DNA of 64,000 nucleotides, from the NCBI RefSeq assembly GCF_003473485.1, contig NC_053044.1, forward strand, positions 32,182,091 to 32,246,090. Reading direction: 5' to 3'. This document shows, in pieces, positions 6,814 through 59,438 of the stretch. Every line of letters begins with the position of its first letter. Positions within the stretch are counted from its first letter, which is position 1. Source of the DNA: Medicago truncatula (Eukaryota; Streptophyta; Magnoliopsida; Fabales; Fabaceae). The notes beneath the pieces were generated by a model that was not told the DNA's origin, ran no database searches, and worked only from the letters and a program-made list of their open reading frames with translations. The translations under genes were made by a program, and so were the position numbers.

Positions 6814-6895
6814 GAAGCCGATGATGACAAAATCAAATTGGAATTACCGTCTGAATAATTTGATGTAAATTTCTTGGCTGTGGTACTGAGGCTTC
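6814..6895 (+). ncRNA. C/D-box snoRNA guiding 18S rRNA methylation
   Basis: An 82-nt gene with all C/D hallmarks in order. The terminal stem GAAGCC (6814-6819) pairs with GGCTTC (6890-6895). Box C is ATGATGA (6821-6827), D' is CTGA (6851-6854), C' is TTGATGT (6860-6866) and D is CTGA (6886-6889). The guide before D', GGAATTACCG (6840-6849), is a perfect 10-bp complement of the universal 18S rRNA string CGGUAAUUCC. By the fifth-nucleotide rule it would direct 2'-O-methylation of the U in CGGU, the site served in yeast by snR77 (U578) and in human by SNORD65. The sequence before box D may be a second guide, but I found no convincing target. A promoter-like region lies upstream, a degenerate copy at 41798-41879 and a truncated one at 8399-8427. 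Confidence 0.85.
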
Positions 6896-7149
6896 AAATT
6901 ATTATTATTATTTTTTTTTCCTTCTGATTCGTCGTAGTCAGATTAGCATTTATAATTTCATTATTTTTATTGAATTGATGTATTAATTAGGATTTTTTCA
7001 TTATATAGTATTGGATTGATAAAACTCTATCGTATGTGAGCATGTGTATTGATACATGAATCATATATTTATAAGGAGTGATTCAATATATTTATTACGA
7101 AAGTTAAGATATACTGTGCTGCATTATTGATGGATGCAGCCGTGGTACA
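6896..7149. other. AT-rich spacer in the snoRNA region
   Basis: No gene seen. It may be part of the primary snoRNA transcript. Confidence 0.3.
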
Positions 7150-7440: not shown

Positions 7441-7548
7441 GCATATGTTATAGATTGCTTGAAATCTGTTTGAAAATGATTTAATATCTGAAAACATAAT
7501 TATATGTCGTTGTTGGGTCTGATGCCACGTCTCTGGTAGCTATATATT

Positions 7549-7680
7549 AGCTCTGACCATAGATGCTATGATTGGACCAAAATCAAGAGTGAATTTCATT
7601 TGTTTCGCATTCTGATAGGAATCTGCCAATCCTATATACTATGATTATGCAGAGCTGATTTGTGCGATTACATTTTTATG
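7549..7680 (+). repeat. Structured repeat module, copy 2
   Basis: Closely similar to 8188-8330 (shared runs 'ggaatctgc', 'cctatatactatgattatgc', 'gcgattacatttttatgta'). GCTCTG near the start is complementary to CAGAGC near the end, so the whole block could close into one long stem-loop. Confidence 0.5.
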
Positions 7681-8187
7681 TATCATAATTTGTGACATTT
7701 GATCTTTTTTATCATGCGATAAGCTACTTATAATTCCTCAAACCATGATAGTTCATATTATCATTCATTTGCAAGTTCATTGAAGGGAAGGTAAAATGAA
7801 ATTCATTAGTAGTTCATGCTAATTTATTATATTATTCAGTGCTGTGTCCACATGGAAACTAATTATTCGGAGGGAGTATACCATGTCCATATGTATCAAT
7901 GGTTGTTTTGTTTGAATTATTTATTTTTAGCTTTACTATCAATTATTGGTCTAGCTTTGTTTTTACTCCTGTGATATTTAGGTTATGAGCAGTGTAAAGT
8001 ACACTGTGAGGAGGATCTCCCAAAAATTGATAGGAAGTGTTGTAGGACACTCTAACCAGAAGCTCTGATTAAAAATTTGCTCATACACAGAAACCAAATT
8101 GCTGTTATCGGTCAGAGACAATATTTTGTTGTGCTGTGTTTGTGTTTTGAAACAGGTCTATTGGTCCATCTCTGGTAGCTATATATG

Positions 8188-8330
8188 AGCTCTGACCAGA
8201 AATGCTATGATTAGACCAAAATCAATAGTGCATGTCATTTGATTCGCATCTTGATAGGAATCTGCTGATCCTATATACTATGATTATGCAGAGCCGATTT
8301 GTGCGATTACATTTTTATGTATTATAATTT
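8188..8330 (+). repeat. Structured repeat module, copy 3
   Basis: Same organisation as the copy at 7549, with the GCTCTG/CAGAGC pairing kept and the CGATTACATTT end intact. It is followed 70 bp later by a truncated copy of the C/D snoRNA, mirroring the order module then snoRNA at 6601-6895. This shows that module and snoRNA were duplicated together. Confidence 0.5.
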
Positions 8331-11486: not shown

Positions 11487-11869
11487 TCATATACATGCAC
11501 AAAAGCCCTCTTTTTTGGAAAAGAATAAAAATTTTGGTTTTAAACACTTTGGTTCGAAAGGATACTCACACAACTCATTTGGGCAACCATTGGCATTTTT
11601 ACAGTTAACACGATCTATTGTAATGTATGGTTTCAAAGGAAACTCACACAACTTGTTTTGGCAACCATAGCCTTCTTTACATTTAACACGACCTTTGTAA
11701 TGAAAAAAGAGAGTAAATGAATGTTAGTTGAATGTGATAAAATATCATCTAGAAAGTATTTAAGGAAATTCTAGAAGGAAAAATATGACTTACCTTCAAC
11801 GTTCATTACAACAAGAAATAGAAAAATAAAGATAATTATAACACAATCATACTTCACATTTTCAACCAT
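11487..11869 (-). CDS. NCR peptide A, with duplicated exon-2 half-module
   Basis: Nodule-specific cysteine-rich peptide gene with two exons. Exon 1 (11794-11869) encodes the signal peptide MVENVKYDCVIIIFIFLFLV ending VMNVEG. The phase-1 intron (11693-11793) is GT-AG. Exon 2 (11487-11692) encodes RVKCKEGYGCQNKLCEFPLK then PYITI, and then a second, canonical half-motif DRVNCKNANGCPNELCEYPF, finishing EPKCLKPKFLFF...FCACI. The long form is 93 aa with 9 Cys in the mature part. A second AG (after 11615, tacaatag) lies exactly at the start of the second half-module. Splicing there (exon 11487-11614) would give a normal 67-aa, 6-Cys NCR. NCR peptides are delivered to symbiosomes and drive bacteroid differentiation. 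Upstream blocks shared with the other NCR genes support nodule expression. Confidence 0.85.
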
Positions 11870-12081: not shown

Positions 12082-12443
12082 GGCTATTTAGGTAGTATCA
12101 CTTTGATCCCTTAATTAAAATTTGATTTATTTTGGTCCCTTAACTTCTCTCCGGTACACATTTTGGTCATTTCCATTAGTTTTAATTCAAAAACGTTAGG
12201 TATTCTTCATTTTCTTTTGAAATTTTTCTGGGATTCTTGTTGTTGAATGTTAATGAAAATGATATGAAGATGAAAAAGAGGAGAAGAAGATGAAGAAAAT
12301 CTAACGTTTTTGAATTAAAATTAACGGAAAGGACCAAAACGTGTAACAAAGAGAAGTTAAGGGACCAAAATAAATCAAATTTTAATTAAGGGACCAAAGC
12401 GATACTACCTAAATAGTTAAGGGACAAAAAATGTAATTTAGCC
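12082..12443. mobile_element. MULE-type TIR element in the NCR A upstream region
   Basis: Non-coding element with long inverted ends ('atttaggtagtatcactttg' ... 'cgatactacctaaatagtta') and a 'gaagatgaagaaaatctaac' interior, the same family as 15181-15566. The outermost ends are GGCTA... and ...TTTAGCC; the left end has lost about 25 bp relative to the other copy. Flanks suggest an eroded 9-bp duplication. Confidence 0.7.
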
Positions 12444-15180: not shown

Positions 15181-15566
15181 GGCTAAATTGTATTTTTGGT
15201 CCCTTAATTATTTAGGTGGTATTGCTTTGTTCCCTTAACTAAAATTCGATTTATTTTGGTCCCTTAACTTTTCTGCATTACACATTTTGATCCTTTATGT
15301 TAATTTTAATTTAAAAACGTTAGATTTTTTTCATTTTCTTCCGAAATTTTTCTAGGATTCTTGTTGTTGAAGGTTGATGGAGATGATATGAAGATGAAAA
15401 AGAGGAGAAAAAGATGAAGAAAACTTAACATTTTGAATTAAAACTAACAGAAAAGACCAAAATGTGTAACAGAGAGAAGTTAAATGATCAAAATAAATCA
15501 AATTTTAATTTAGGGACAAAAGCGATACTACCTAAATAATTAAGGGACAAAAAATACAATTTAACC
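15181..15566. mobile_element. MULE-type TIR element
   Basis: 386 bp; ends GGCTAAATTGTATTTTTGGT and inverted ...AAAAATACAATTTAACC. Flanked by taaaatcaa (15172-15180) and taaaattaa (15567-15575), a 9-bp duplication with one mismatch as expected for Mutator-like elements. Same family as 12082-12443. Non-coding. Confidence 0.75.
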
Positions 15567-25404: not shown

Positions 25405-25788
25405 TCATACACATGCACAAAAGCCCTCTTTTGTGGTCAGGAATAAAAAATAAGGTTTTAGGCACTTTGGAATCCAACGACCCTCACACAAGTTGTTGCC
25501 TTCACAACCAGAGTCGTCTTTACATTTAATACGATATGTTCTAATGTGTGGTTTCAAAGGAAACTCATTCCACTTGTTTTGGCCACCATAGTCTTCTTTA
25601 TATTTAACACGACCTGTTGTAATGAAAAGAGTAAATGAATGTTAGTTGAATGAGATAAAATATTATTTAGAAAGTATCTAAGGAAATTCTAGAAGGACAA
25701 AAAATGGATTACCTTCAACAATCATTGCAGCAAGAAATAGGGAAATAAAGATAATTATAACACAAACAAATTTCACAGTTTGAACCAT
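25405..25788 (-). CDS. NCR peptide B, with a Cys-less extra module
   Basis: Two-exon NCR gene: exon 1 25713-25788 (signal peptide MVQTVKFVCVIIIFISLFLA, AMIVEG), phase-1 GT-AG intron 25614-25712, exon 2 25405-25613. The mature part begins RVKYKEDYGGQNKWNEFPLK then PHIRTY. This is the same extra half-module as in NCR A and D, but all three of its Cys are replaced (by Tyr, Gly and Asn). The canonical part follows: RIKCKDDSGCEGNNLCEGRW, IPKCLKPYFLFL, FCACV, with six Cys in NCR spacing. The inner acceptor seen in A and D is not present as an in-frame AG, so only the long 94-aa form is expected. The frame is open throughout. A hAT element begins about 240 bp upstream and separates the gene from the rest of its ancestral upstream region. 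Confidence 0.8.
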
Positions 25789-35743: not shown

Positions 35744-36051
35744 TCAATTACAATGACAAAAGCCGTCTTTTGTGGAAAGGAATAAAAAATAAGGTTTTAA
35801 ACACACTGGTATCAAAGGAAACTCACACAACTCATTTTGGCAACCAGAGTCTTCTTTACATTTAATACGACCTGTATTAATAAAAAAAAAGAGAATAAAT
35901 GAGAATGTTACTTGAATGAGATAAAATATTATGTAGAAAGTATCTAAGAAAATTGAAGAAGGGCAAAAAATGACTTACCTTCAACGTTTGCACCAAGAAA
36001 TAAGGAAATAAAAATAATTATAACATAAACAAACTTCACAATTTCAACCAT
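35744..36051 (-). CDS. NCR peptide C, canonical six-Cys
   Basis: Two-exon NCR gene: exon 1 35979-36051 (MVEIVKFVYVIIIFISLFLG, ANVEG), phase-1 GT-AG intron 35872-35978, exon 2 35744-35871. The mature peptide reads RIKCKEDSGCQNELCEFPLI, PVCLKPYFLFLSTKDGFCHC, N: six Cys spaced C-x5-C-x4-C-x7-C-x14-C-x1-C, the canonical NCR pattern. Total 66 aa. Unlike A, B and D it has a single half-module and one acceptor. The signal peptide should direct it through the nodule-specific secretory pathway to the symbiosome. The upstream region is intact in all shared blocks, so this is a good candidate for an active gene. Confidence 0.9.
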
Positions 36052-36514: not shown

Positions 36515-36834
36515 GGCTTAATAGTAGTTCTTGCCCCTACGTTTCTTAAAGTTGTGATTTTGGCCCCCTAAGAAAAAAACTACAAAATCGCCCCCTAAGT
36601 TTTGCATCTGTAGCAGTTTTAGCACCCAAGGCCAACTTTGACTCGGTCTACACTGACGTGGCACCCTAAGTGAGGTGCCACGTGTTACTTTTTAATTTTA
36701 TTTTTACCAAAAATTGTCCCTGGGGTCAAAACTGCTACAGTTGCAAAACTTAGGGGGCGATTTTGTAGTTTTTTTCTTAGGGGGCCAAAATCACAACTTC
36801 ATAAAAGTTAGGGGGCGAAAACTGCTATTAAGCC
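36515..36834. mobile_element. MULE-type MITE
   Basis: 320 bp; ends GGCTTAATAGTAGTT and inverted AACTGCTATTAAGCC, exact 9-bp duplication ttctataaa at 36506-36514 and 36835-36843. TIRs extend about 100 bp ('tagggggcgattttgtagtt'). Absent from the equivalent place in unit 2, so it inserted after the duplication. Confidence 0.9.
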
Positions 36835-38457: not shown

Positions 38458-39157
38458 GTAATAGTTCATGTATATTTTCACAAGGTTTTTATGTTCTTGA
38501 GTTTCATCCCTAGTTGAGACAATAATTTAGTACCCTATAACATTTAATTCATTTGTAGATCATAAAGTAAACCCCGAAACAAGAAGAGATTGAGATGAAT
38601 CATGAGTGATTGGTGAGAGGGTTACATGATTCTTGACCCTTAACCTTAATATGGGTTAGTACAATTACCTTGTTAATCTTTAGTAATTGAAATAGAGAAG
38701 ATACTGACTATGAATGGATAGTCCAATAATCTAGTTTCTATTTGATGGTGAAGATAAAATATGGTAATTAATCAATATAGTATGATTGTTGTTGATTAGC
38801 TGAAAGGTATATCATGAATATGATAAATTCATCGTATATTGATTATGCATACGTGTAGTAAAAGGATAAAAACTTGTGGCGTAGTCATCTATATTTGATT
38901 ACCATAACGGAATGACAAATGACCAAGTAAAATGGACAAGATAATATTATATGTGGTCCATCTAAATAAATATATATACACACATACACACACTATAACG
39001 AGCTTTTTTCCGGTAAACTTAGGTGCTAGATAAAGAATGGCTCATGGTAATGATGCAGTATTACCATAAGTCCATTCTATATCTAACACAATATTACATA
39101 CAATTAGTTACCTTGTTAATCTGGAGAAAACGGGTCTCCTACCGAATATGCAATGTG

Positions 39158-39370
39158 ATCCTGCACTATTAGAAACTCTTGATTTTCCTGCTGAGTTACC
39201 TGTGGATTTGTCAACGATTTAGGTTCCCAACTAATACCTTCGCGGGTAATTGTTTCCTTAGGATTTTAGAAACCGCAGGAAAGTTACATTCGTAGGAAAA
39301 CTTGCAGAAACAACGGTAGGAACCTTCATGAAAAGAACAATTTCCGCACGTAAATCCGCATGAAATGACT
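39158..39370. mobile_element. CACTA-like left end
   Basis: Starts CACTATTAGAAACTCTTG and carries the same TTTCCTGC / CCGCAGGAAA subterminal repeats as the end at 38457. A related, more decayed copy lies at 47364-47580 in unit 2. No right end was found. Confidence 0.5.
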
Positions 39371-40254
39371 TTATTTTTTATTTTTAAAAATATAATGCAT
39401 TTCAATCCATTCCAAACCGATCAAAGCACGCCCCCGCGCGAGGATCACTCCACACATATCCTCTAACCGCTCCCTAATCACACCCGCAAAAATCGGAAAT
39501 GGTTATTCTCAATGCGCATCTATTATAAGGGTGATATTGTTTCACCCTCAAGGTATGATTCACTTTTCACAACACTTTATACACACTCTTTCTCAGTTCC
39601 ATTACTGACTGTTGGAGTGCTAACGTGCATGCGGACAACTTTCATTTCACCTTGAAGACTCATTGCCACAATACCGGAACACTTTCCGCCACTTTTGCCT
39701 CTCATCCATCCTCATCGGATAGATCCATTTTAAACCCTATTATAAAATATGAAACAACCCAAAATAAAATTAAATATGTGAAAAATGACTAAAAACAATG
39801 AAGTGTGATTATTTAAAAGTTCATTTTATAGTCTAAATTATAAAATTAATAAAACAAATATTTAAATTTAATTATCATTGACATTTAAATTATAAAAAAA
39901 TTAATTTATTTTTCTTAAATGATGGTTCAAATTAGTATATATCATACAAACATTTATTTATGTTAAAATAAATTAAAGTGTAGTGTATATTTAATTATTA
40001 AAGGAGGGTGCTGTAATTCAAACATCTTATAGAGAAGGGGGGTATAAATTTAATTTTTCGAAAGAGAGGAGTGTATATTTTAACATAAGAGAGAAAATCA
40101 GTGTAATTCAAACGTCTCTTAAGAGAGAGGAGTGTAATTTACTCTTGTTTTTATTTGTTAAATAATTCAGATTACAAAATCCCAAAACTTCAACTAATAT
40201 TTGACATTATTTTCTTGTAGTCATCGTAAGATTGACATCTATATTTAACGAGGA
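39371..40254. other. Duplicated intergenic DNA (copy at 47585-48537)
   Basis: Matches unit 2 over most of its length ('cgcgaggatcac', 'ctcattgccac', 'ttaaaccctattataaaata'). No coding capacity recognised. Confidence 0.5.
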
Positions 40255-40432
40255 ATGTTATTTGAACAACCATTTTAGGGGACAACTTGTGGGATAACCA
40301 AAATATACTATGTAGATTTTGTCACAAAAATTAAAGCAATAGAGAGAGAAAATGATAACATAATGTGAGTGTAAGAGGGAAAGTTGTCATAAAAGTTGTC
40401 ACATAATGGTTGTTCAAATATAATTTCTCAAC
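40255..40432. mobile_element. MITE, unit-1 copy
   Basis: Ends ATTTGAACAACCATTTT and inverted AATGGTTGTTCAAAT; the unit-2 copy lies at 48538-48718. Same family as 24541-24707. Confidence 0.7.
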
Positions 40433-40451
40433 TTAAAGAATAAAAGCTATT

Positions 40452-40559
40452 CCGAGAGTGTATCCTATGATTGGACCGAAATCAATTGTGCATGTCATTT
40501 GTTGCATCATGATTTTGGTCGATCTTGACAACTTTGGTCACAACTATCATTATGCAAAG
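40452..40559 (+). repeat. Structured repeat module, copy 4
   Basis: Contains GACCGAAATCA (40476-40486) that pairs over 11 positions (one G.U) with TGATTTTGGTC (40510-40520) around an inner GTGCA/TGCAT stem. The 3' part (CTATCATTATGCAAAG) is interrupted by the LTR-like insertion at 40560; the rest resumes at 41694. Confidence 0.5.
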
Positions 40560-41693
40560 TGATACAAAATTAGCAAATGTACTAATTTATGTCGAAGTAA
40601 TAATATAATTCGTATCTAAAGGATCTATTTTAATCACCACTTGACAATAACATTAGGATATATTTAAATGTGGTTGGGGGGGGGGGGGGGGGGGTGGGGG
40701 TGTTGTGCCTTAGGCAATTTGGATTGAGTGCAATCAATAGTAAATAACTTAAAGTAAACTTGGTTTTTAAACTATGATGAGAGAAAGGATCAGGTCTTTC
40801 GATTCATCTATTCATCACTCATTAGTAATCTGCTTATAAATCCTACAAAATACTATATAGTTTAGGACAATTAACAAAATAGCTCAGGTCAATCCCTTGA
40901 CCCAGAGCCCTAGCTCTTTTCCAATTATAATTCTTTAGGTGAACCTAAAACCATCAAAGGTTTTTACCACATTAATTCTAAAGTCACAACCAAACAACGT
41001 TCCATCCCTAGATTGTCTGTTAAGATGAACAGTATAATAAGTCAAAGTTATAAGCTGGTGTCAATAGTCATATAATCTCTAGAATCAATTATATTGGGTT
41101 AGAATCATAAAAGCATTAAGAGAAATTTATACTAAATAAACTAGAATAACATTCATAAAGATTTAGAGTTATAGGTTACACTGTCATAAGCTAGAACAGA
41201 ATCATCTAGGGACCTAATCATAAAGAACCTAGATACTCATGGATAAAGCACAAATAACTAATACAAAAGTAGGATTCATTACATGAATTTGATAACCGGC
41301 TATGAGTTTTGACGGTCTTCCACCTAATCTCCAGATATCGAGCTCCAAAATTTTTAACCCTAGCTTCAGAAAACAACTTGGCTTTTATAGAAAAAAAATC
41401 CTAGTAACACCAAAATCGTGCTACAATACTTAAAATCGTACCATGAAAGCCCATTAATTTCAAATATCCTTCAGACGCGCCACCAAAATCGTAGCACGAT
41501 ATTTTACATAGCAGAAGCTCTCCAAAGCTGCTCAAAATCGTACTCCGATCCATAAAATCGTAGCACGATATCCTCTTTGCTCTAGCACATAAAGTCTGTC
41601 CTTTTGTAGCTTATAACTCTTACAGAATCACCTGAACTCATCTAAAATTACATAAAAGCTGTAACAAAAGTGATATATGATCTAGTGCCATCA
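40560..41693. mobile_element. Probable solo LTR
   Basis: 1,134 bp starting TGATACAAAATTAGC and ending ...CTAGTGCCATCA (TG...CA), flanked by caaag (40555-40559) and cagag (41694-41698), a 5-bp duplication with one mismatch. It interrupts the structured repeat module. No internal retroelement genes are present. It contains a 20-base G-rich run near 40676 and repeated 'aaaatcgtagcacgat' strings. The family is not identified. The unit-2 copy keeps only its first ~25 bp. Confidence 0.55.
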
Positions 41694-42926: not shown

Positions 42927-43309
42927 TCAATTACATGCACAAAAGCCTTCTTTTGTGGAAAAGAATAAAAAATAAGGTTTCACACACTTTGGAAACAAAG
43001 GAAGCTTACACAACTTGAGTTCGCAACCAGAGTCATTTTTACATGTAACACGACCTGTTCTAATGTATGGTTTCAAAGGAAACTGACATGACTTGTTTTG
43101 GCAACCATAGTCTTTTATACATTTAACACGACCTGTTGTAATGAAAAAAGAGAATAAATGAATGTTACTTGGATGAGATCAAATATATGTAGGAAGTATC
43201 TAAGGGAATTAAAGAAGGAAAAAAATGGCATACCTTCAACGTTCTTTGCAATAAAAAATAGGGAAATAAAGATAATTATAACATAAACAAACTTCACAAT
43301 TTTAACCAT
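42927..43309 (-). CDS. NCR peptide D, two in-frame splice acceptors
   Basis: Exon 1 43234-43309 (MVKIVKFVYVIIIFISLFFI, AKNVEG), phase-1 intron 43133-43233, exon 2 42927-43132. With the first acceptor (acaacag) the product is 93 aa: RVKCIKDYGCQNKSCQFPLK, PYIRT, then GRVTCKNDSGCELKLCKLPL, FPKCVKPYFLFFSTKEGFCA, CN, with nine mature Cys. A second perfect acceptor (agaacag, exon start 43054) lies 78 nt inside and is also in frame. Using it yields a 67-aa peptide with the canonical six Cys. Both exon starts have the same sequence GTCGTGTTA, so the 78-nt unit duplicated the acceptor with the first half-motif. Upstream blocks are complete. Which isoform is made cannot be told from DNA. Confidence 0.88.
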
Positions 43310-43560
43310 GTTTTTCCCCTCTGACGTATGCAATAGAATTTGTTTTTATCACTTTATAATTTATAAAGCTCATCCTCTTCTTACATACATTAAATAGCTT
43401 TTAGCATTTAATAAGAAAATGTCTCTTAAGCACAACAAATGGTTGTGTTTGTCCCTATATCACACTTAGAAAGTTCATCCTTTCTTTCGTAAATTTAGAA
43501 TCATTATTAAATGTCTCTGAAATACATAAAAAGTACCGTGTTTGTCCCTTAAGAAACGTA
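43310..43560 (-). promoter_or_regulatory. NCR D upstream region, shared blocks intact
   Basis: Same order of blocks as NCR C: AAAGTGATAA, TATA-like TGTATGTAAG, proximal GGACAAACACAACCATTTGT, distal ATTTAATAATGATTC and GGGACAAACAC. Spacing is nearly identical to C, as expected from the duplication. Confidence 0.65.
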
Positions 43561-47188: not shown

Positions 47189-48537
47189 TACTATAAATGA
47201 GCTTTTTCCGGGTAAACTTAGGTGCTAGATAAAGAATGGGCTCATGGTAATGATGCAGGATTAATTATCATAAGTCAATTCTTTATCTAACACAATATCA
47301 CATACAATTAGTTACCTTGTTAATCCGGAGGAAATGAGTTTCCTACCCAATATGAAAAGTGATCATGCGCTGTGAGATACTCTCGATTTTCCTGCATAGT
47401 TACCTACGGATTTTGTCAAGGATTTAGGTTACCAACTAATACCTTCGTGGCTAATTGTTTCCTTAGGAGTTTAGAATCAATAGGAAAGGTATATTCGCAG
47501 GAAAACCCGCAGGAACAACCGCAAGAACCTTTATGAAGAGAACAATTTCCACAGGTAAATCCGCATGAAATGAATTTATTTTTTATAAAAAAATATAAAT
47601 TATATAAGATGCAATTTTTAAACATTTCAGCATTTTTAAAAATTCCAGTGCCTTAACGCCCCACGCCTTAAGGAACATGCCAATTTAGTGCACTGCATCC
47701 AAACACGCCCCGTGCGAGGATCACCCTACATGTGTCCTCTAATCGCTCCCTGATCACACGTTGCAAAATCCAGAGACAGTTATTCTCAAAGCGCGCCTAT
47801 ATAAGGATGACATTGTTTCACCCTCCAGATACGATTCACTTTTCACAACATTTTCTACACACTCTTTCTTAGTTCCATTAGTGACTTGAGCGTTGGATTG
47901 CCAACGTGCCTATTAGCACATTTCGTTCCACCGCGAAGACTCATTGCCACCGTACCGGAACACTTTTCGTCACTGTTACCTCTCATCCATCCTCACTGAA
48001 AAGATTTTTTTAAACCCTATTATAAAATATGAAACAACCCAAAATAAAATAAAATATGTGAAAAATTACTAAAAAAAATAAAGTATGATTATTTAAAAGT
48101 TAATTTTATACTCTAAATTATAAAATTAATAGAAAAATATTTAAATTTAATTATCATTGACATTTAAAATATAAAGAAATGAATTTATTTTTCAAAATGG
48201 TGGTTCAAAATTAGTCTATATATTAAAAATATTTATTTACGTTAAAATAAATTAAAGTGAAGTGTATATATAATTGTTAAAGAGGGTGTTATAATTCAAA
48301 CATCTTATAGAGGAGGGGAGTATAAATTTAATTTTTCGAAGGAGAGGAGTGTATATTTTAACCTAAGACAGAAGATGAGTGTAATTCAAATTTCTCTTAA
48401 GAGAGAGGAGGGTAATTTACTCTTGTTTTTATTTGTTAAACCGTTAAATAATTCAGATTACGAAATCCCAAAACTTCAACAAACAGTTGACGTTATTTTC
48501 TTGTAGTCGTGAGAAGATTGATATCTAAATTTAACGA

Positions 48538-48718
48538 GGAATGTTATTTGAACAACCAATTTAGGGGGCAACTTGTGGGAAAACCAAAATATACTATGTA
48601 GGTATTGTCTCAAAAATAAAAGCAATAAAGAGAGAGAACGATAACATAACGTGATCGGTGTGAGATGCAAAATTCTCATAAAAGTTGTCACAAAATAGTT
48701 GTTCAAATATTATTTCTC
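48538..48718. mobile_element. MITE, unit-2 copy
   Basis: Ends ATTTGAACAACCAATTT and inverted ATAGTTGTTCAAAT; pairs with 40255-40432. Confidence 0.65.
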
Positions 48719-48870
48719 AACTTAAAGAATAAAAGCTATTCCGAGAGTGTATCCTATGATTGGACCGAAATCCATAGTGCATATCATTTGTTGCATCATG
48801 AATTTGGTCGATCATGACAACTCTTGTCACAGCTATCATTATGCAGAGTGATACAAAATTAGCAAGTGTA

Positions 48871-49326
48871 CGGACTATTTTAATCTCTACTTGAAAAACT
48901 CTAACTTGTAAAATCTATAAATTGATTTTCCTCCCTTTATAGAATCTTCACCTGATCATTCTTCCTCCCAAATTGAAAGAGGAAGCCAACGACTCTTGAA
49001 GCACATTTCTCTGTAAACATTCACCGCTTCTGATCTTCTTATGCTTCCATTCCAATTTTTAATTGTCATCGATGCAAGAAGACATCGAGATAGACAACGA
49101 AATTTGAACTCTAAAACCCTAAATTAAAAGGTGTTTTGTGTATCTCTTCCTCACCAACTTTTCTCTTCTTTCTCTTACCAGCTCCGTATCTCCAAATTTG
49201 TTAATTCTTCCTTCCTTTAATTTGTTTCTCTTACCATCTCATAATTGTACTGTCTCCAAATGTACAATTATGTATTTCACTAACTCTTTCACTATTGCTT
49301 CCGAAGTTATCTTTATATTGTTTCTA
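48871..49326. other. Intergenic beyond unit 2
   Basis: Pyrimidine-rich, leader-like sequence around 48940-49130 ('aaaccctaaattaaaa'), but no coding exon recognised. Confidence 0.4.
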
Positions 49327-59135: not shown

Positions 59136-59438
59136 ATGACTGAAATTGTAAAAAAAAAATTATGTCATGATTATCTTTCTTTTCATATTTCTTGTTGCAC
59201 CGAATGTTCAGGGTAAACCATTTATTTACCATTTTAATTTTCCTTAGTTACTTCCTACATAATATTTTATATCATTTTTGTAACATTCTTTTATTCTCTT
59301 TTTTTAATTACAGCGCAACGCAATAGATTTAGAGAAGATTCTGATTGTCCAATTGAAATGTGTGGATTTCCTTTGAAAACAAATTGTTTAAGGCCACATT
59401 TTATACTTGGTAAAAGAGGCATATGTGTATGTGTTTGA
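59136..59438 (+). pseudogene. NCR gene F, decayed
   Basis: Exon pair with the NCR layout: signal-peptide exon 59136-59212, intron 59213-59313, second exon 59314-59438 coding RNRFREDSDCPIEMCGFPLK, TNCLRPHFILGKRGICVCV. Splice sites are present. However, the signal-peptide reading frame is disturbed, and the mature part has five rather than six Cys. I regard it as a recently decayed NCR; the conserved upstream blocks could still drive transcription. Confidence 0.75.

Follow-up and report, generated by a model that had tools for sequence, protein, structure and literature searches.

A 78-nt tandem duplication across the intron/exon 2 border of three NCR genes in a 64-kb window of Medicago truncatula

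NCR genes and the closest described systems

NCR peptides control the fate of bacteroids, the nitrogen-fixing bacteria. They have been described with four or six Cys residues in the excerpted passages of four papers (PMC9515463, PMC6056668, PMC9219011, PMC7230169), and their genes are described as having two exons and a phase-1 intron after the signal peptide in excerpts of an NCR review (PMC12461094). The same excerpts mention Cys counts of 'occasionally 8-10', assign peptides above six Cys to a group C, and give the motif forms as multiples of two. In red clover, 25 genes with at least eight Cys and mainly nodulated-root expression are called putative or likely defensins in the retrieved portions of PMC9655500. 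Those portions describe alternative splicing of NOD25, an NPD gene, SYP132 and NF-YA1, and the splicing passages among them report no alternative splicing of NCRs. No word containing 'splic' occurs in the main text of the Medicago NCR papers PMC4168050 and PMC10673856. A nine-Cys, odd-Cys or alternatively spliced NCR design was not found in the searched excerpts of open-licence PMC main texts, although supplements may list one. Six peptide strings likewise gave no match in literature main texts, supplements excluded.

The gene compared here with these systems, NCR D, lies in a 64,000-nt stretch of Medicago truncatula DNA, referred to below as the window. It shares with ordinary NCR genes its two exons, a phase-1 intron before the mature peptide, a signal peptide, the core Cys spacing and promoter motifs. 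Whereas ordinary NCRs have four or six Cys, D differs in an extra N-terminal three-Cys half-motif that brings its total to nine. More than six Cys and a nodule context are also found in the NCR and defensin-like peptides of PMC12461094 and PMC9655500, as far as the excerpts of these papers extend; by the same excerpts, D departs from them in that its Cys number is odd, the result of repeating only part of the NCR motif. A tandem duplication over an intron-exon junction that copied the 3' splice site is described in the excerpted account of a potato RdRp gene (PMC4974935). The potato duplication also included a putative branch site and pyrimidine tract, and it gave rise to a new intron; neither element was copied in D. 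Finally, disulfide variants of chickpea NCR13 differ in activity, according to the passages available from PMC11637438, which also cite NCR169 and NCR247; cysteine number could therefore matter. Those variants are foldings of one sequence, whereas the D case would concern splice or Cys-number variants.

The 78-nt duplication in NCR D

NCR D occupies positions 43309-42927 on the minus strand and consists of two exons, with the following layout:

43234-43309, minus strand: exon 1, encoding the signal peptide MVKIVKFVYVIIIFISLFFIAKNVE and the first base of a G codon, followed by a phase-1 intron
43133-43233, minus strand: intron, 101 nt, GT...AG with the outer acceptor
43055-43132, minus strand: extra module, 78 nt, 26 codons, GRVKCIKDYGCQNKSCQFPLKPYIRT including the exon 1 base, three Cys
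43055-43056, minus strand: inner AG, alternative acceptor with exon start 43054, without a T-rich tract
42927-43054, minus strand: six-Cys core and stop codon
43074-43143, minus strand: upstream repeat copy, 70 nt ungapped
42996-43065, minus strand: downstream repeat copy, 70 nt ungapped, 83% identical to the upstream copy

The donor reads aag/GTATGC (slashes mark splice junctions). Outer exon 2 (43132-42927) begins at the junction tacaacag/GTC and the inner exon start (43054) at tagaacag/GTC. The preliminary description of this locus had placed a 78-nt duplication across the acceptor, had read both AGs as in phase with frames open to a shared stop, and had assigned nine mature Cys to the outer splice product and six to the inner one. 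All of this was confirmed. Both acceptors read CAG/GTCGTG, lie exactly 78 nt apart and share one phase and one stop (end 42927). A tandem-repeat finder (TRF) called 42996-43143 with a period of 78, and the repeat scored 46 (+1/-1 scoring), whereas the best of 60 shuffled versions of the gene (first-order Markov) reached 16, demonstrating that it is not due to chance.

The computed outer product is MVKIVKFVYVIIIFISLFFIAKNVE-GRVKCIKDYGCQNKSCQFPLKPYIRT-GRVTCKNDSGCELKLCKLPLFPKCVKPYFLFFSTKEGFCACN, some 67 residues long and containing nine mature Cys; the middle block GRVKCIKDYGCQNKSCQFPLKPYIRT is absent from the inner product, which has six. Net charge at pH 7 is 8.7 with the module versus 3.7 without it, the module contributing about +5. 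Similarity between the two copies starts 11 nt before the exon (CATTACAACAG / CATTAGAACAG), with none further upstream. The copied part of the intron is thus its last ~11 bases, CATTA[C/G]AACAG, and the T-rich tract and branch-point region were not copied. It is the outer site that has kept the T-rich tract CTCTTTTTT and the branch-point candidates (CTAAC/GTAAC), so that the end of the module (...IRT) would be former intron appearing in the protein, if the outer site is used.

Both spliced products matched the Pfam family Nodulin_late (PF07127; cut-off 30.4 bits), the outer one in two stretches at E 1e-18 and 67.9 bits and the inner one at E 8.3e-18 and 64.9 bits, in agreement with the preliminary assignment of D to the NCR genes. 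A Nodulin_late match was obtained for five genes of the window. As in other NCR genes, the phase-1 intron of D follows the signal peptide and lies shortly before the first Cys. The core spacing, C-x5-C-x4-C-x7-C-x14-C-x-C, falls within the six-Cys range given in the available part of PMC9655500. The inner product fits the four-or-six-Cys description of NCRs, and the outer product consists of a six-Cys core with three preceding Cys.

An NCBIfam search gave no match. Solved structures gave weak matches only (E 0.36 or worse), the sole NCR among them being chickpea NCR13, at E 2.8 with a single sequence and E 5 with a profile. AlphaFold models were too poor to use, with a mean pLDDT of 57.3 for the outer mature peptide and 69.8 for the inner one (five sequences each). 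No relatives were confirmed in bacterial/archaeal and viral contig collections, as expected of a plant gene.

Paralogues, promoters and divergence of the module

The window was searched for paralogues by Cys-spacing patterns and by tblastn with D, an approach that could miss four-Cys or distant NCRs. Six NCR-like genes were retrieved, A-D on the minus strand and E and F on the plus strand; those other than D are as follows:

11487-11869, minus strand: paralogue A, nine mature Cys, the 78-nt module as in D, inner AG (TAG/A) in frame
25405-25788, minus strand: paralogue B, same module, but with Y, G and N in place of its three Cys and without the inner AG; six mature Cys
35744-36051, minus strand: paralogue C, without the module, a plain six-Cys NCR
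about 54182/54200-54508, plus strand: paralogue E, without the module
about 59137-59438, plus strand: paralogue F, without the module

The preliminary description had noted the design in D alone. It is not confined to D: A and B bear the same duplication at the same place, so three of the six NCR-like genes have the module, which is missing from C, E and F. The tandem-repeat finder called a period of 78 in A and D, not in B. At the inner-acceptor position, A reads caatag/atc, with the AG kept and in frame, and B reads aacat/atc, with AT for AG, its outer frame staying open; the inner site is therefore retained in two of the three module genes. The B product has an intact six-Cys core behind a 26-residue Cys-free N-terminal extension. 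Gene F appears degenerate, its signal-peptide frame being broken around an A run and its first mature Cys position being Phe.

Promoter sequences within ~400 bp of the start codon were scored against the five published NCR motifs, as given in excerpts of PMC3613412, and against 200 control segments. The promoter of D is arranged as follows:

43327-43520, minus strand: D promoter, motifs 4 (-211), 1 (-161), 5 (-111) and 3 (-67)

Motifs 1, 3, 4 and 5 of D each beat 200 of 200 control segments. Motif 2 was not found upstream of D, 50 of the 200 controls being as good. Every one of the six genes, the degenerate F among them, has motifs 1 and 3 above all controls. Scores above all controls were likewise reached by motif 4 in four genes (A, C, D, E), by motif 5 in three (A, B, D) and by motif 2 in E alone. 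Since motifs 1 and 3 are present in F, the promoter alone is no proof of a working gene. On the combined sequence features of Pfam match, exon structure, core Cys spacing and promoter, D is classed as an NCR gene. It is unlikely that D is silent or decaying, with an inconsequential duplication. The cluster does contain a degenerate member in F (exon 1 frame broken, first Cys changed to Phe), but the exons, donor, acceptor and frame of D are intact and four of its promoter motifs outscore every control, although motifs 1 and 3 do so in F too.

Trees were built from eight region sets. A and B paired in six of the eight (87-100% bootstrap), the exceptions being exon 1 alone and the core alone, for which supports within the A-D group were 31-52. 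D joined A+B with a bootstrap of 64 (all regions minus the module) and 57 (core plus downstream). C joined D with 75 when upstream region, exon 1 and intron were taken together and with 47, 34 and 31 for parts of these, and the downstream region set gave an odd C+E pair (83). The single unit of C differs from the outer copies of the module genes at 20, 21 and 21 of 88 positions and from their inner copies at 18, 19 and 19 of 88, roughly the same distance. These trees are compatible with either C or D branching first. The module may have been gained once after C split off, or gained and then lost in C.

Other features of the window were recorded. A MIR2619 precursor match (Rfam) lies at 36585-36763 on the minus strand, ~530 nt upstream of the start codon of C. 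C and D are similar on both of its flanks, C being ~260 nt longer (repeat-piece spacing 7258 versus 6998), and the precursor may lie in an insertion within the C promoter. Two MIR5298 precursor matches (Rfam; 12196-12286 and 15320-15410, plus strand) fall within a pair of repeats separated by 3.1 kb, the copy at 12196-12286 being ~330 nt upstream of A. MIR2619 and MIR5298 are both Medicago families and, together with the five Nodulin_late matches, agree with the origin of the window. A plus-strand snoRNA cluster (6815-6897, 7516-7675, 8155-8314) comprises snoR77Y and a tandem pair of snoR2 copies spaced 639 nt apart. A direct duplication of ~1.5 kb joins 39060-40582 and 47264-48871, 8.2-8.3 kb apart, with pieces 76-92% identical.

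Divergence among A, B and D was 10-13% in the module and 21-27% in the core. Intron divergence was 13-16% in pairwise alignments and 7% (A-B), 14% (A-D) and 11% (B-D) in a multiple alignment, a yardstick that varies with alignment type. At 10-13% against 7-16%, module and intron evolve at similar rates. NG86 counts between the three genes gave a module pS of 0-0.06 and pN of 0.12-0.15, with no sign of purifying selection. Thirteen sites of the module vary, with 14 departures from the majority sequence in total, at most one of them synonymous; the probability of at most one synonymous change in 14 is 0.15-0.17, which is not significant, and 0.03 if that change is counted as nonsynonymous. The absence of a stop from the module in all three genes has a neutral probability of 0.455, and retention of all three Cys in both A and D, again with no stop, one of 0.29; neither the open frames nor the retained Cys therefore prove much. 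In B, five of the 26 module residues are changed, all three Cys among them (hypergeometric 0.0038; simulation of this type of Cys loss, 0.004 for B and 0.006 for any of the three genes), figures that are post hoc and refer to a single lineage in which two of the changes are adjacent. This loss would fit a translated module purged of an odd Cys number, but it would also fit chance. Evolution thus marks the module weakly as protein.

An evolutionary rate close to that of the intron, with no sign of constraint, also agrees with exclusive use of the inner acceptor, by which the module would be part of a 179-nt intron and D an ordinary NCR making the canonical six-Cys inner product recognized by Pfam (E 8.3e-18). 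We consider this very unlikely, as all three module genes have an intact, T-rich outer acceptor and B is without an inner AG.

Splice signals and the predicted peptide of NCR D

The first suitable AG past a branch point is normally chosen as acceptor. T content at the acceptors was ranked against all 6679 AG sites on both strands of the window (-30 to -5), and the 505 YAG/G sites of the window served as a second yardstick (T fraction at -25 to -5). Branch-point candidates were scored against the branch-point consensus, and gene F was left out of the comparison. These measures are crude T content and consensus matches, as opposed to a trained plant model. The outer site of D has a T fraction (-30 to -5) of 0.62, ranking at 98.3% among AG sites and 96.2% among YAG/G sites, versus 0.35 and ranks of 49.9% and 28.7% for the inner site. 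In A, the outer acceptor ranks at 96.6% and 96.2% and the inner one at 49.9% and 28.7% on the same two yardsticks; the outer acceptor of B is somewhat weaker (83.1% and 85.7%). Within 70 nt, five branch-point-like pentamers precede the outer site of D and one weak pentamer (TTGAA, -19) the inner site. The candidate at the outer site is:

43164-43168, minus strand: branch-point candidate GTAAC, its A at -33 from the outer exon start, a consensus match only

Its counterpart CTAAC has its A at -32 in gene A and at -29 in gene B. Five AGs, the outer acceptor included, precede the inner AG of D, and the outer AG is retained in all five of the genes A-E. By these splice-signal measures, the outer site of D is the one more likely to be used constitutively, and the inner site may be used at a low level.

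The preliminary description had proposed a toggle between six-Cys and nine-Cys peptides; both acceptors of D would then be appreciably used, perhaps to different extents in different nodule zones. Some features fit such a switch: both AGs are CAG/G, in phase, 78 nt apart and followed by one stop, A likewise retains an in-frame inner AG, and the duplicated exon start could bring local exonic signals with it. A T-rich tract combined with branch-point-like signals was, however, found at the outer acceptor and not at the inner one, where no T-rich tract is present, the single branch-point candidate is weak and five AGs lie ahead. The inner AG is gone in B and reads TAG/A in A, and the excerpts covered by our literature search contain no report of NCR alternative splicing. 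We therefore regard competition between the two acceptors as unlikely.

A related scenario concerns A and D as a subfamily, in which the outer splice would give a nine-Cys peptide with an unpaired thiol, maybe a disulfide dimer, and a minor inner splice the ancestral six-Cys peptide, B having shed its extra Cys and its inner site together. This, too, appears improbable.

In our judgement, D probably makes a single extended nine-Cys peptide from the outer acceptor, the duplication being ancestral to A, B and D. A 78-bp tandem duplication across the intron/exon 2 border of a six-Cys NCR gene would have occurred before these three genes split, so that the first half of the Cys motif was copied together with no more than the final ~11 nt of the intron. 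Splicing would have stayed with the original outer acceptor, which has its own branch point and T-rich tract; with that acceptor still used, the copied half-motif and a few ex-intron residues would be read within one longer secreted peptide. This extended peptide would have nine Cys in D (~67 residues), nine in A, and six in B after loss of the extra Cys. The duplication would have left the inner AG as a by-product that is rarely or never used. The duplication itself, its presence in A, B and D, the open frames and the NCR identity are established; the splice choice, translation, secretion and nodule expression of D are inferred. The peptide would most likely act on bacteroids as other NCRs do, with the module adding about +5 charge.

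Read most simply, A, B and D are a small subgroup of NCR genes in which part of the Cys motif is repeated and splicing would still take place at the original acceptor. Their design represents a modest new variant of a well-known family. The three genes offer a natural series for examining the importance of an odd Cys number: two of them (A, D) retain the added half-motif, and in the third (B) it has lost its Cys. If both acceptors were used, one gene would yield peptides of different disulfide capacity, an arrangement that we have not found described for NCRs.
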